A stretch of 64,000 bases of DNA from Diplonema papillatum (taxonomy: Eukaryota > Euglenozoa > Diplonemea > Diplonemida > Diplonemidae). Under the pieces are notes generated by a model. The model did not search any database. It had not been told where the DNA came from and saw nothing but the letters and a program-made list of their open reading frames with translations. Positions within the stretch are counted from its first letter, which is position 1; the number at the start of each line of letters is the position of its first letter. Shown piece after piece: positions 6,983 through 63,019 of the stretch. The stretch covers positions 1-64,000 of the forward strand of contig JAPJBO010000046.1 in the NCBI GenBank assembly GCA_030068145.1. The letters are read 5' to 3'. The translations under genes and the position numbers were made by a program.

Positions 6983-7186
6983 GATTGTATTCGCCATTCT
7001 TGTTTGCGGAAACGTATCTTCGGCCATAGGGGGAAGTACTCTTGAGTATCCAGGCCAGGGTGAGCGATCGTACGTGGAAGCCGAGATTGTATTCGCCATT
7101 CTTGTTTGCGGAAACGTATCTTCGGCCATAGGGGGAAGTACTCTTGAGTATCCAGGCCAGGGTGCGCGATCGTACGTGGAAGCCGA
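6983..7186 (+). repeat. Two tandem 102 bp units
   Basis: GATTGTATTCGCCATTCTTG begins at 6983 and 7085; both units run through GCGGAAACGTATCTTCGGCC, CTCTTGAGTATCCAGGCCAG and GATCGTACGTGGAAGCCGAG with almost no difference, so the duplication is recent. A single older copy of the front half is at about 5600-5690. Confidence 0.9.
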
Positions 7187-23420: not shown

Positions 23421-23705
23421 ACCGACACCCTTTGTGGGATCTGATGAGCGATCACTCGAACACCTGAAGTCAGCTCTCGGTTCATCCCGCGTCGCCAGTC
23501 CTGCTGTCAAGATGAACCGACACCCTTTGTGGGATCTGATGAGCGATCACTCGGACACCTTAAGTCAGCTCTCGGTTCATCCCGCGTCGCCAGTCCTGCT
23601 GTCAAGATGAACCGACACCCTTTGTGGGATCTGATGAGCGATCACTCGGACACCTTAAGTCAGCTCTCGGTTCATCCCGCGTCGCCAGTCCTGCTTACCA
23701 GAAGT
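23421..23705 (+). repeat. Three tandem 95 bp units
   Basis: ACCGACACCCTTTGTGGGAT begins at 23421, 23516 and 23611; each unit continues GCGATCACTCGGACACCTTA, CAGCTCTCGGTTCATCCCGC, GTCGCCAGTCCTGCTGTCAA. The units are nearly identical. Confidence 0.95.
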
Positions 23706-23857
23706 GGCCCACTTAGAACCAGGATTCTACGTCAGGGTTCAATGAAGTAACCCCTCTGCTCACACCCATTTAAAGTTTGAGAATAGGTCGAGGAAGCGAT
23801 TTCCCCAATGCCTCCAATCATTCGCTTTACCTGGCGTAACTGCTATTTTGGTTCTAA

Positions 23858-24133
23858 CTATCCTGAGGGAAACTTCGTTCTGAGGCAGAACCCCACCGAG
23901 TAGTACTGGGGGCGGAGGGTGGCTACGCCTTGAGCAGTCCCACGGCCTCTCACAGCCTCTCCCTCCCGCCTGCAGGTGTTCTTGTGGCCGTCGCTACCGT
24001 GCTGTGGTGAGCGGCCGACCGCGGCGGCGGCCGCCGGTTTGCTGACCTGCGTCTGCTTCTTCACCGGTTTCGTTGATGATTTGCCGTCTTTTATTCCGCG
24101 CAAAGCGAACGCTTTTTTCTCTGCCGTGGTCAT
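23858..24133 (-). CDS. Possible 5' fragment of a basic protein
   Basis: ATG at 24131-24133. The product starts MTTAEKKAFALRGIKDGKSS and continues with lysine-rich sequence (PVKKQTQVSKPAAAAA), like the N-terminus of a nuclear or chromatin protein. After about residue 50 it loses coding character and ends at 23858. No acceptor tract is obvious. It may be a truncated gene. Confidence 0.3.
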   Translation of the reverse strand: MTTAEKKAFALRGIKDGKSSTKPVKKQTQVSKPAAAAAVGRSPQHGSDGHKNTCRREGEAVRGRGTAQGVATLRPQYYSVGFCLRTKFPSG

Positions 24134-36255: not shown

Positions 36256-36340
36256 ATGGGGGAAATCCGAGAACACGTAGGGGGCTTCTGACCGACTACG
36301 CCACGAGCTCCTATGGGCTCCTTAAAGGAAAGGCCTCTAT

Positions 36341-36660
36341 TTTCGAGTGAAGGGAGCCTGAGAAACGGCTACTACATCTAAAGATGGCAGCAGGTACGCA
36401 AATTGCCCAATAGCAACGAAGCGAAGAGAAATAGCCTCGACACGTACTTAGTACGTTAGAAGCAACGGATGATATCTAAACCTGTCAATGAACACAATTG
36501 GTGGACAAGTCTGGTGCCAGCGCCCGCGGTAATTCCAGCACCAATAGTGTATATTAATGCTGCTGCTGTTAAAAAGCTCGTAGTCGGATCCAGAGCTCAA
36601 ATTGCAAGGTGGCCCAGTTTGCTGGGCAGCGTACTGCTGGTATTCAGAAGGCTGGGATCA
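36341..36660 (+). pseudogene. 18S rRNA fragment, 530-loop to V4
   Basis: AGGGAGCCTGAGAAACGGCT, ACTACATCTAAAGATGGCAG, CAGGTACGCAAATTGCCCAA, then GACAAGTCTGGTGCCAGCGC, CCGCGGTAATTCCAGCACCA, GTATATTAATGCTGCTGCTG, TTAAAAAGCTCGTAGTCGG. This is collinear with small-subunit rRNA from about E. coli 370 to the V4 entry. The AGCGAAGAGAAATAG and TTAATGCTGCTGCTG variants are euglenozoan in my memory. Nothing like the rest of the gene flanks it, so it is a fragment; homology past 36660 could be V4 but is unclear. Confidence 0.8.
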
Positions 36661-52216: not shown

Positions 52217-52358
52217 CGCATTGCCGTTTCTACGCATGATTACGAGTTCAGTTTTCTCCCTACATTCAACACACGAGTGGTACGCAGTATGCCAGCAAGC
52301 AGAGTTCCCAGGGTACCAAGCGATCGGGTTCGCAAAGAAGCGCGTGGTTTTGGTTGGT

Positions 52359-52430
52359 TCGTTACCGACAACTTATATTTTGATGAGGTGTCATCCAGAT
52401 GCAAACCTGAAGCCGCCCACACGAGTGAAA
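52359..52430 (+). repeat. Diverged relative of the OTU-flanking repeat
   Basis: CGTTACCGACAACTTATATT, TTGATGAGGTGTCATCCAGA, TGCAAACCTGAAGCCGCCCA match 57586-57640 and 59423-59480. Confidence 0.65.
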
Positions 52431-57189: not shown

Positions 57190-57547
57190 TTGCTGTCCGG
57201 CGGCCGAGTTCTGTCGTGGATGTGTGTGGGTTACGACCCGTTTTTACGTGGTGCCTCCCTTCACGGAAGTACGACCACGTTTGTGTGTGTGTGGGTGCGG
57301 GTGTGCGTACAGTTCATGGCTTAAAGTGAGCGTGGGTGCGTCTGAAGCGAAGTATAGCCCAGGCGTCGCTTTCACCAGTCGGTTTCGAGTTTCCGATACG
57401 CTACGTTCGGGTCCTGTGACACCTCTCCGAAGGGTTGCTACGGGAGGTTGGCAGCTTCTCCATCCGCTCACTTCTGCGCAACACCGTAGGACAATCAAGA
57501 TATGGTAGTGCTTCGCAGCCAAAAATGAAAACACAGTGTGCCAAGAA

Positions 57548-57756
57548 GAAATGCGTAGTTTTGTTTTATTCTTTTACTTGTTAGTTGTCGACAACTTCTT
57601 TTGTATTGAGGTGTCATTCAGATGTAAATCCAAAGCCGCCCACGTCAAATTTTGTTAAGCATTGAGTTCTTTTAAGTACATTTGTTAAGCAGCGGCTGCC
57701 AAAACTTGCCGTGACACCTATGATCAAAGTAAAGGAGGAAAGGAGAAAATGTTTCT
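57548..57756 (-). repeat. Direct repeat, downstream side of the OTU gene
   Basis: GAAATGCGTAGTTTTGTTTT, ATTCTTTTACTTGTTAGTTG, TCGACAACTTCTTTTGTATT, GAGGTGTCATTCAGATGTAA, CTGCCAAAACTTGCCGTGAC, ACCTATGATCAAAGTAAAGG. About 95 percent identical to 59383-59560 apart from a 30 bp extra piece (CATTGAGTTCTTTTAAGTAC). It contains AGGTGTCA and TGACACCT as an inverted pair. Confidence 0.9.
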
Positions 57757-57829
57757 AAAAGAAAAGGGGCAGGCTGTATTTTTGGACCCTCGTAGCTCGC
57801 TGGGTCAGGCGCGCCAGGTAGATGCTGGG

Positions 57830-59224
57830 CTAGTTTCTGTCTGGACTTGGACTGTGTAGTCCTTCTGAATTCTTTTCACAGGTCCGTTCATGCACACCCA
57901 CACCGAACTGGTTGGCAAACGGGTTGCCAGACCTCGTTGTTGTTACGCCACAATGGCGGCATTGAAGAACCATTTCGTTTTGGAAGCTGCGTTCTTGTGT
58001 TCGTGGGATGTTTGCTGGTGGGCTTGCGTGCCGGGTTTGTGTTTGTGACGGCGTCGATAGTCCTTGCGGTAGTTCCGGTGTTTGCGGCTGATCCGGCGTT
58101 TGCGATCGACTTTCTAGATGCTCCGGTGTCGCCGGGCGAGCAGGTGGCTGTTCCGGTGGTTCCGGTTGAGCGAGTGGCTCTTTCGGAGATGCCGGTTGCG
58201 CTACCGGCTGCTGCTCTTGCGGGCGGGCGAGCTCTTCTGGGAATGTCGAGGAGACAGAAGGACTTTCTGCAGATTTCGCTCGGGGGTCAAGGAACCTTTT
58301 GAGTTGTGTGTCGGAGATTGTGCCTGTGACTGGGATGTAGTGCACCTGAGCTATGTAACCGAGCAATACAAGAGGACCCGTTTCTCCAACCGTTTGTGTG
58401 TGGAACCTGTTTCTCTCATCGATTGAGAAGAGGCGGATTTGCACCTTCTTAAGCTTTGTGAAGGCTACGAGGGAGAGGTAATCACCCCAAGTGTAGTTCT
58501 CACGTAGCTTTTCGATGTATTGAGAAATGTTCATGTCGGGTAAGAAGAGTTCCAGATCGTCTCTGTGTGCATCCCAGTAATCTGCCAGTTCGTTGCGGAG
58601 AACCATCTGGTCGCCTTGTTCGTAAGTCAAGCTCAAGAACAAACAGTTACCATTACCAGATACGGTTCGCGGTTGCAACCCTATTTCTCTCAATCTTGCT
58701 GTAAGTTTAAGTTCGCGTTTGAGAAGTCTGTCGCGAGGGTTGTCCTCGTTGGCGGATGGGGAAAGAATTGGAATGCAGTTTTCTCTCGAAAGTGATGATA
58801 CCACCTCACTTACTTTCTTTGTTCTTCTGCGGCCTACTCTTTTTTGTTCTTCTATAAGTGGAAACCCCGCGTAGTACGAGACGGTGCATTTTTGAAACCA
58901 TTGTTTTAGGGACCGTTGCGACGCGCCGAGGTTCGGCAAACGTTCTTGCACACCGTGGTGGAAGACTGTTTTCAGCTTCTGAATGCGATGGCCTCTGTTC
59001 AGCAGTAAGTAAAGTACTAGCTGAATTTCTCTCAGCGCGTCGTGCCAGTTGTTGCACAAGTTGAGGCAGCGAATGAGCAAGTTTTTCAGGATGGCTGACC
59101 CCTGGTGGTCAGGGATGGTTGACCATTGGTGAACGAACCTTACTGGTTTAAAGTGCCAGTTCCTTGTTTTGTCATTGACTGAGAGCCTGACAAAGCTAAG
59201 GTGCTCGTTGGTGCTTTGCTCCAT
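57830..59224 (-). CDS. OTU-family cysteine protease, probably mobile-element encoded
   Basis: ATG at 59222-59224, 464 residues, no intron, clearly less GC-rich than the other genes. Residues 188-300 form an OTU domain: TVSGNGNCLFLSLTYEQG with Cys194 (NGNC replaces the usual DGNC), LRNELADYWDAH, ENYTWGDYLSLVAFTKLKKV and YIAQVHYIPV with His295. Such domains remove ubiquitin or, in viruses and transposons, process related substrates. Residues 315-405 are proline-rich with PExP/TPE repeats. Residues 422-449 hold C-x2-C-x19-H-x3-C, a likely zinc finger. The N-terminal 180 residues (LYLLLNRGHRIQKLKTVFHH..) faintly recall the segment after the palm of retroelement polymerases; that is a guess. The gene lies between direct repeats of 209 and 178 bp. 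No pyrimidine-AG signal sits at the ATG, which also sets it apart from host genes. Confidence 0.75.
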   Translation of the reverse strand: MEQSTNEHLSFVRLSVNDKTRNWHFKPVRFVHQWSTIPDHQGSAILKNLLIRCLNLCNNWHDALREIQLVLYLLLNRGHRIQKLKTVFHHGVQERLPNLGASQRSLKQWFQKCTVSYYAGFPLIEEQKRVGRRRTKKVSEVVSSLSRENCIPILSPSANEDNPRDRLLKRELKLTARLREIGLQPRTVSGNGNCLFLSLTYEQGDQMVLRNELADYWDAHRDDLELFLPDMNISQYIEKLRENYTWGDYLSLVAFTKLKKVQIRLFSIDERNRFHTQTVGETGPLVLLGYIAQVHYIPVTGTISDTQLKRFLDPRAKSAESPSVSSTFPEELARPQEQQPVAQPASPKEPLAQPEPPEQPPARPATPEHLESRSQTPDQPQTPELPQGLSTPSQTQTRHASPPANIPRTQERSFQNEMVLQCRHCGVTTTRSGNPFANQFGVGVHERTCEKNSEGLHSPSPDRN

Positions 59225-59382
59225 CCGTATCCGTATGCCTAGATACTCTACGTCGCCGAACGTTCTGTTCCGCCACGTGGCTTTTTAGAACAAATGATAG
59301 CAGTTCCGGAGAAGTGCACCAGTGCTTAGCCAGATCCTCCACTGGTAGCTCTAATGAGACCCATGTGGTAGATCGGTAGAAA

Positions 59383-59560
59383 GAAATGCGTAGTTTTGTT
59401 TTATTCTTTTACTTGTTAGTTGTCGACAACTTTTTTTGTATTGAGGTGTCATTCAGATGTAAATCCAAAGCCGCCCACGTCAAATTTTGTTAAGCAGCGG
59501 CTGCCAAAACTTGCCGTGACACCTATGATCAAAGTAAAGGAGGAAAGAAGAAAATGTTTC
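59383..59560 (-). repeat. Direct repeat, upstream side of the OTU gene
   Basis: GAAATGCGTAGTTTTGTTTT through TCGACAACTTTTTTTGTATT, GAGGTGTCATTCAGATGTAA, GTTAAGCAGCGGCTGCCAAA to ATGATCAAAGTAAAGGAGGA. Same orientation as the copy at 57548. Confidence 0.9.
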
Positions 59561-59574
59561 GAGAAACGTTTCGA

Positions 59575-59760
59575 GAAACGTTGGCTGAACGCTTACGTCC
59601 GCCAGGAAACCGGTTAACCTGTGTTTCGTGTGGGCTACGCTTACTTCCGTTGAGATTGGAATTTGTTGCGATAGTGGGGAGTCATGCCGATGAGTACCAC
59701 ACTATTTGAGATTCCGCAACTGGCGGCCTCATCACGTATTTCCTACAAAGCACTGTACGC
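59575..59760 (+). mobile_element. SINE-A copy with a truncated palindromic insert
   Basis: CTGAACGCTTACGTCCGCCA, CTGTGTTTCGTGTGGGCTAC, then TTGCGATAGTGGGGAGTCAT, GCCGATGAGTACCACACTAT and GCAACTGGCGGCCTCATCAC, TTTCCTACAAAGCA. The palindrome has lost part of one arm. GAGAAACGTTTC units just before (59563) are a small tandem repeat. Confidence 0.8.
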
Positions 59761-62465: not shown

Positions 62466-62918
62466 TCAAGTTCCTCTGTGGCGACTGTCCGTGAATCGAC
62501 TCATTGCGAAATCGTAGGTGCTTTCTGGTGCTTCCTGGTCGTGCACGCATACAAGCAAGTCCTTTTTGACCTTCTCCAGGAGTCTGACTACGCCCTGCAG
62601 CTGCATCCACGAGACTGAATCACTCGGCGCTGCCACCCACACGGCGTACTCGGAGTGGTATTGGTCGGGATCTCCCCTGTAGAGCACGTAGTCACACCCG
62701 TACATGAGGCCGCCCTTCACAACCCAACCCTTCCCCTCGTACCACCCCTTCACGAACCCCTCCTCGGCCCGGCCCCACTGGTCGTCCGCGCCTCCGGGTA
62801 TCTCCTCCGACTTCGTTTCTTCGCCGCCGCTGGCCGATTTCCCGTGCCATTCCGTCAGGTACTTCCCCCATCGTGGCCGCGGTAACCGGTCCGCAACGTT
62901 CTCCAGCGACCGCTTCAT
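62466..62918 (-). CDS. tRNA-splicing endonuclease catalytic subunit (SEN34/SEN2-type)
   Basis: The open frame starts further up without an ATG, so I take the ATG at 62916-62918 (150 residues, beginning MKRSLENVADRLPRPRWGKY). Residues 50-126 match the tRNA-intron endonuclease catalytic domain: GWVVKGGLMYGCDYVLYRGD, PDQYHSEYAVWV, SWMQLQGVVRLLEKVKKDLL. The catalytic Tyr80, His88 and Lys118 or Lys119 keep the spacing known from yeast Sen2 (Y289, H297, K328). The YRGDP form is closest to the SEN34 branch. The enzyme cuts introns out of pre-tRNA in the nucleus or at the mitochondrial surface as part of a four-subunit complex. The product is shorter than Sen34 and lacks the last strand of the fold; the end (MSRFTDSRHRGT) may have been altered by the repeats that begin at 62405. 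The N-terminus is also uncertain, since no pyrimidine-AG signal is visible. Confidence 0.75.
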   Translation of the reverse strand: MKRSLENVADRLPRPRWGKYLTEWHGKSASGGEETKSEEIPGGADDQWGRAEEGFVKGWYEGKGWVVKGGLMYGCDYVLYRGDPDQYHSEYAVWVAAPSDSVSWMQLQGVVRLLEKVKKDLLVCVHDQEAPESTYDFAMSRFTDSRHRGT

Positions 62919-63019
62919 CGCATGGCGCGGTGGACGGATGTCGAAGCCAACCTCTCTCCCGACCCCCTTCGCCCCCACTTTCCTTTTTGCAGGGATCCTG
63001 ATGTCGGCTCCGTCCTAAC

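Follow-up and report, generated by a model that had tools for sequence, protein, structure and literature searches.

An Internally Deleted Copy of a Probable Permuted-Type Penelope-like Element with an OTU Domain in Diplonema papillatum

The Unit and Its Surroundings

The window, that is, the whole 64,000-nucleotide stretch of Diplonema papillatum DNA analysed here (contig JAPJBO010000046.1, positions 1 to 64,000), contains a 464-codon open reading frame (ORF) with an OTU domain, set between two repeats of the same orientation (Table 1), as an earlier sequence-only reading had correctly described. The repeats, of 210 and 180 bp, differ by two substitutions and one 30-bp gap. Within the ORF, residues 1–157 make up the end of a putative reverse transcriptase (RT) region, the OTU domain matches PF02338 (Pfam E 4.9e-9), and the finger region (residues 330–464) has no Pfam match at E up to 10; the C-terminal zinc finger noticed before is indeed there, as a Cys/His finger.

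Table 1. Features of the unit and of a related fragment in the window; L numbers denote loci elsewhere in the genome.
Feature	Positions	Strand	Basis
Upstream pLTR, 180-bp form	59381..59560	-	Repeat alignment and comparison with other copies
First 123 bp of the non-coding 5' leader	59258..59380	-	99% to L005 and 91% to L047, in the same place after the upstream pLTR
Internal-deletion junction, ~4.1 kb missing relative to L047	59257..59258	-	Copy comparison and 24-mer search
End of the putative RT region (GDVEYLGIRIR onward)	58754..59257	-	In other copies YMDDF lies just upstream
Remaining 464-codon ORF with stop and its own ATG: RT end, OTU, Pro-rich linker, Cys/His finger	57830..59224	-	
OTU region, residues 176–301	58322..58699	-	The Pfam match covers residues 190–278
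Candidate catalytic C194 and H295	58643-58645 and 58340-58342	-	Fall on the OTUD5 Cys and His stretches in the alignment
C-terminal C2HC-like finger (C422, C425, H445, C449)	57878..57961	-	Read from the sequence
3' untranslated part with polypyrimidine-A end (AG completed by base 57755)	57756..57829	-	
Downstream pLTR, 210-bp form, 3' end ..ACGCATTTCTT	57546..57755	-	
Fragment of an old solo pLTR from this family	52357..52420	-	Alignment and genome search

The unit is not set apart by its GC content, contrary to the compositional difference from its neighbours noted before: the three kilobases from 57001 have GC contents of 0.524, 0.514, and 0.470, within a window range of 0.454–0.725. The inverted sequences AGGTGTCA..TGACACCT do occur in both repeats, but these 8-mers are internal and not terminal. 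They form a stem in folds of two individual repeats, and part of this pairing recurs in the fold of a 29-copy alignment. A scan of positions 57400–59700 with Rfam at E up to 5 gives no match to a known RNA, hammerhead ribozymes included.

The diverged relative reported near 52359 is real, with 80% identity to the repeat over 64 nt. With 40 of 45 candidates scored, a genome search with this stretch returns 39 further matches. Each of these ends by query base 81, that is, position 52420, and no fewer than four (C182, C612, C13, and C235) lie within repeats of the Penelope-like family.

Elsewhere, the window holds fragments of an LSU rRNA gene (23668–23872, - strand; Rfam 173 bits) and of an SSU rRNA gene (36286–36545, + strand; Rfam 113.6 bits), the latter with the look of a degenerate pseudogene because 562 model positions fall within 260 bases. 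A tRNA intron endonuclease gene is found at 62469–62978 (- strand; Pfam E 3.9e-17). A short way outside the unit, at 57279–57435, is a member of a different dispersed repeat family of ~150 bp, mostly at ~80–84% identity (1411 first-look candidates, 40 scored).

Copies Across the Genome and the Full-Length Element

The genome searched comprises 271 Mb in 2910 contigs and is eukaryotic to judge by the rRNA fragments above, and the repeat and OTU gene do occur together elsewhere in it, as the sequence-only reading had proposed one should check. The body of the unit (57546–59257) is a dispersed repeat (40 of 518 candidates scored). Seven of the 29 loci L010–L038 (L010–L016) match it over 1485–1503 bp with 1–6 mismatches and at most one gap, so that the window copy is young. 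The 3' end ..ACGCATTTCTT is common to 27 of 30 rows, 25 of them continuing into differing flanks and two into the leader, and among the long loci compared the 5' ends differ in position.

One might see in this arrangement a host OTU gene that two independent MITE or SINE insertions happen to flank, and the repeat is certainly numerous (2125 first-look candidates, 40 of them scored) and lacks the OTU body in six of the eight loci extracted from the repeat search. In the other copies, however, body and repeat are joined, duplicated together at many sites and in the same register; the ORF continues into RT elsewhere, and what separates the upstream repeat from the body is the leader of an element. 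We therefore consider such a capture extremely improbable, and read the repeats instead as the terminal repeats (pLTRs) of a Penelope-like element (PLE) of ~6 kb. A MITE was also rejected as the identity of the repeat, whose inverted 8-mers are internal, whose 3' end is constant, and which in other copies is joined to an RT–OTU ORF.

In 14 of the 18 copies examined, codons for YMDDF stand in frame directly upstream of the body; the exceptions are two shortened copies (L024 and L032), one that shares 72 bp only (L029), and one that is out of register yet aligns to L010 (L034). Stop-to-stop ORFs of 1256–1547 codons are present in half of the ten long (10-kb) loci (L040, L041, L044, L046, and L047), and the rest comprise L048, with 1109 codons, and four broken or truncated loci (L039, L042, L043, and L045). 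A further subfamily (L053) is stop-free over 1544 codons and encodes a protein 76% identical to that of L047.

The full-length copy L047 (C3) is ~6 kb long and consists of a pLTR, a leader of ~1.1 kb, one ORF (GIY-YIG, RT, OTU, and finger), and a second pLTR. Its upstream and 3' repeats are identical over 247 bp, and no ORF in its leader exceeds 85 codons from stop to stop. Two more elements, on C2072 (L049, L050) and C1067 (L051, L052), have a pLTR of the same orientation at both ends, the ends alone being compared. Across 29 copies the repeat is 170–250 bp long, a variation due mainly to a single internal segment, and no long pLTR tandems were seen. The upstream pLTRs of L005, L047, L049, and L051 open with a polypyrimidine tract and AG, resembling a splice acceptor; the shorter upstream pLTR of the window starts at the point right after this opening.

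Because 59258–59380 corresponds to the start of the leader, the window unit can be read as repeat, leader start, an internal deletion of ~4.1 kb, RT end with OTU, and repeat. The 24-mer across the junction occurs once in the 271 Mb, with up to two mismatches allowed. The proposal of a small mobile element with long direct ends thus holds for the mobile origin and the direct ends, but the unit is not small in its own right, its size being due to the deletion within a ~6-kb element. A stand-alone small transposon was rejected on the same ground, with the OTU being the C-terminal part of the longer element's protein.

Other places also carry parts of the element. At L054 (C1227), a match to the leader start is followed ~1.2 kb on by a 57-bp match to the 3' end of the repeat, and at 16 or more places the match to the leader covers only roughly its first 200 bp; places of the L054 type are probably a non-autonomous derivative with an unrelated interior. 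L005 (C233) has an intact pLTR and leader but no longer resembles L047 a few codons from the probable start codon, so that it seems to be another derivative with other content. In L045 (sense 7147–7174), the 5' edge of the body is immediately preceded by 28 bp from the start of the pLTR, and this locus is perhaps another internally deleted copy.

Since its 464-codon ORF is intact and has an ATG, and repeats stand at both ends, one might regard the deleted copy as a small non-autonomous family amplifying as a unit, or as a domesticated OTU gene, and other pLTR-plus-leader derivatives (L005 and L054) do seem to exist. Such a family is at odds with a junction that is single in the genome, and domestication with a body that is 1–6 bases from its close copies and hence too recent for selection to be visible here. 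We judge either outcome very unlikely, and treat the unit as a single deleted copy of the ~6-kb element.

Inspection by eye at 57545/59561 did not reveal a target duplication, which had been proposed as something to look for outside the unit, and none was convincing at seven other copies. An 11-base flank match at L046 is of low complexity and overlaps the element end, and CTCTGT possibly flanks the copy on C2072 (by eye). No empty site was found: among the 40 of 1411 candidates scored, the one full-length match to the left flank is the window itself, and the right flank was compared with the retrieved loci only.

Nuclease, Putative RT, and OTU Parts in One Protein

All four long proteins examined have an N-terminal GIY-YIG domain (PF01541, E 2e-5 to 5e-5, above the cut-off) and a C-terminal OTU domain (E 1.5e-8 to 4e-8) by Pfam, and so does the protein of L053. 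In L047, GIY-YIG occupies residues 301–349 and YMDDF follows several hundred residues later, which places the nuclease N-terminal to the RT. Structure predictions are poor, with a mean pLDDT of 30.5 for the GIY-YIG–RT part and 46.5 for the OTU part. A scan of IMG/VR with the GIY-YIG–RT alignment (without OTU) returned no relative.

Profile scores for the RT part are weak. The YMDD stretch matches the NCBIfam group II RT (E 7e-4 to 6e-3) and retron RT (2e-3 to 7e-3) profiles in three of three subfamilies, below the curated cut-offs; Pfam RVT_1 gives 0.076–0.13 for pieces of L041 and L047, nothing for pieces of L053, and nothing for whole proteins at E up to 1. There is no RT among the PDB matches. 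The motifs YGLPKLHK, GLPLG..ANL, and YMDDF presumably resemble those of Penelope-like RTs. We read the long protein as containing a weakly scoring, putative RT palm with YMDD.

These weak scores, together with the OTU- or Ulp1-like proteases of other mobile elements (Ginger1, Helentrons, and NeSL/Utopia), could point to a LINE or LTR retrotransposon with OTU instead of a PLE. The nuclease, however, is GIY-YIG, and Pfam at E up to 1 finds in the long proteins only OTU, GIY-YIG, and a sub-threshold SAM match, whereas integrase, RNase H, and APE are missing from the matches. The direct terminal repeats, like the 5'-truncated copies, also fit PLEs. A LINE or LTR origin is therefore unlikely, and we retain the PLE.

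The OTU part appears to be a member of the OTU cysteine proteases, judged by the Pfam match and by the catalytic Cys and His. C194 and H295 are kept in all four subfamilies compared, and the OTU profile aligns with OTUD5 through both stretches. The Asp-to-Asn change in the DGNC motif was rightly noticed, as the window reads NGNC (N191), but it is not a local mutation, since Asn is found in three of the four subfamilies and Asp in L048.

Across nine pairs of copies the OTU has a dN/dS of 0.046–0.095, as against 0.033–0.08 for RT where measurable, 0.03–0.06 for GIY-YIG, 0.09–0.17 for the finger tail, and 0.35–0.51 for the Pro-rich linker that adjoins the OTU; since dS is often high or saturated, these ratios are approximate, and the OTU's low ratio is partly due to its high, near-saturated dS. 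The OTU changes faster than the RT at the protein level, with 74–88% identity versus 86–92% for RT in four pairs. The contrast with the neighbouring linker nevertheless argues that selection maintains the OTU, which is thus no mere passenger, and we conclude from these substitution patterns that the OTU of the family is under purifying selection. In the protein of one subfamily, L048, the linker carries a long EQSMTRPVTP repeat array.

Placement Among Known Elements and a Possible Role for the OTU

PLEs often carry their pLTRs in partial tandem copies and make target-site duplications of variable length, and some possess a hammerhead ribozyme. The PLEs of Adineta vaga are said to have a C-terminal GIY-YIG, and the Chlamys/Naiad PLEs were reportedly described by Craig et al. 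in 2021 as having GIY-YIG before the RT in one ORF and direct terminal repeats. The Chlamys/Naiad clade is defined by RT phylogeny and a finger-domain insertion. NeSL/Utopia LINEs are not known to have pLTRs.

The present element shares the domain order and direct terminal repeats of the Chlamys/Naiad elements, and adds a C-terminal OTU, a Pro-rich linker, and a Cys/His finger. The GIY-YIG nuclease, its position before the RT, the direct terminal repeats, and the 5'-truncated copies all fit this permuted type, an assignment whose basis is nuclease type, domain order, and terminal repeats, the RT itself being identified from weak profile scores. It is thus very probable that the window unit derives by internal deletion from a permuted-type PLE whose single protein ends in OTU and a Cys/His finger, and is itself non-autonomous. 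The suggestion that the OTU is retroelement cargo is borne out to the extent that it forms the C-terminal part of this protein.

Canonical PLEs (A. vaga and Anolis) resemble the present element in having pLTRs of ~180–220 bp, 5' truncation, and an internally deleted derivative between pLTRs, and differ in the inverted pLTRs, tail, and hammerhead that are reported there and not seen here; the available parts of both papers do not mention OTU (PMC3846280, PMC11167929). In the Anolis element, GIY-YIG is C-terminal (PMC11167929), and the derivative with an internal deletion bounded by pLTRs is described for A. vaga (PMC3846280). Ectocarpus PLEs have been assigned to Chlamys and are stated to be the first reported in that supergroup, and the word OTU is absent from the main text of that paper (PMC12477816).

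Mobile elements with proteases of this kind are known, with OTU in Ginger1 and Helentrons and Ulp1 in NeSL/Utopia. Several families of Ginger1 DNA transposons carry OTU at the C-terminus of the mobility protein, like the present element, but combine it with a DDE transposase and terminal inverted repeats and have no RT (PMC2836005). In NeSL/Utopia LINEs, too, a cysteine protease of ubiquitin-like type is fused to a retroelement protein, although theirs, an Ulp1 accompanied by a restriction-like endonuclease, is N-terminal (PMC4640811). We did not find the combination of GIY-YIG, RT, and OTU in one protein, or any OTU described in a PLE, in the literature searched; the main 2021 paper on permuted PLEs (doi 10.1093/molbev/msab225) was outside that search, and the terms Penelope-like, GIY-YIG, and OTU all occur in PMC3482391, so that a published case may nevertheless exist.

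For the Anolis element, GIY-YIG nicking and reverse transcription of pLTR-containing RNA have been outlined (PMC11167929). In the present family, the GIY-YIG nuclease would similarly nick the target, and the RT would copy pLTR-containing RNA from the nick (target-primed). The OTU may then strip ubiquitin or a related modifier from the element's own protein–RNA complex, preventing its degradation, or may alternatively act on proteins at the insertion site. Neither the nuclease nor the catalytic RT motifs are present in the window copy, whose movement would therefore depend on intact copies.

The window locus is ordinary and alone of little weight. For the family, it is conceivable, though somewhat less likely than not, that in a permuted-PLE lineage an OTU deubiquitinase has become indispensable to the retrotransposition protein, with removal of ubiquitin serving as a built-in step of the cycle or as a counter to host restriction. 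If the OTU is under purifying selection across PLE subfamilies, it would be a further independent case next to Ginger1, Helentrons, and NeSL/Utopia, which also have cysteine proteases for ubiquitin-like tags. With DGNC as well as NGNC subfamilies, and with several copies in a single genome that are young and free of stops, the family would offer a testable system.
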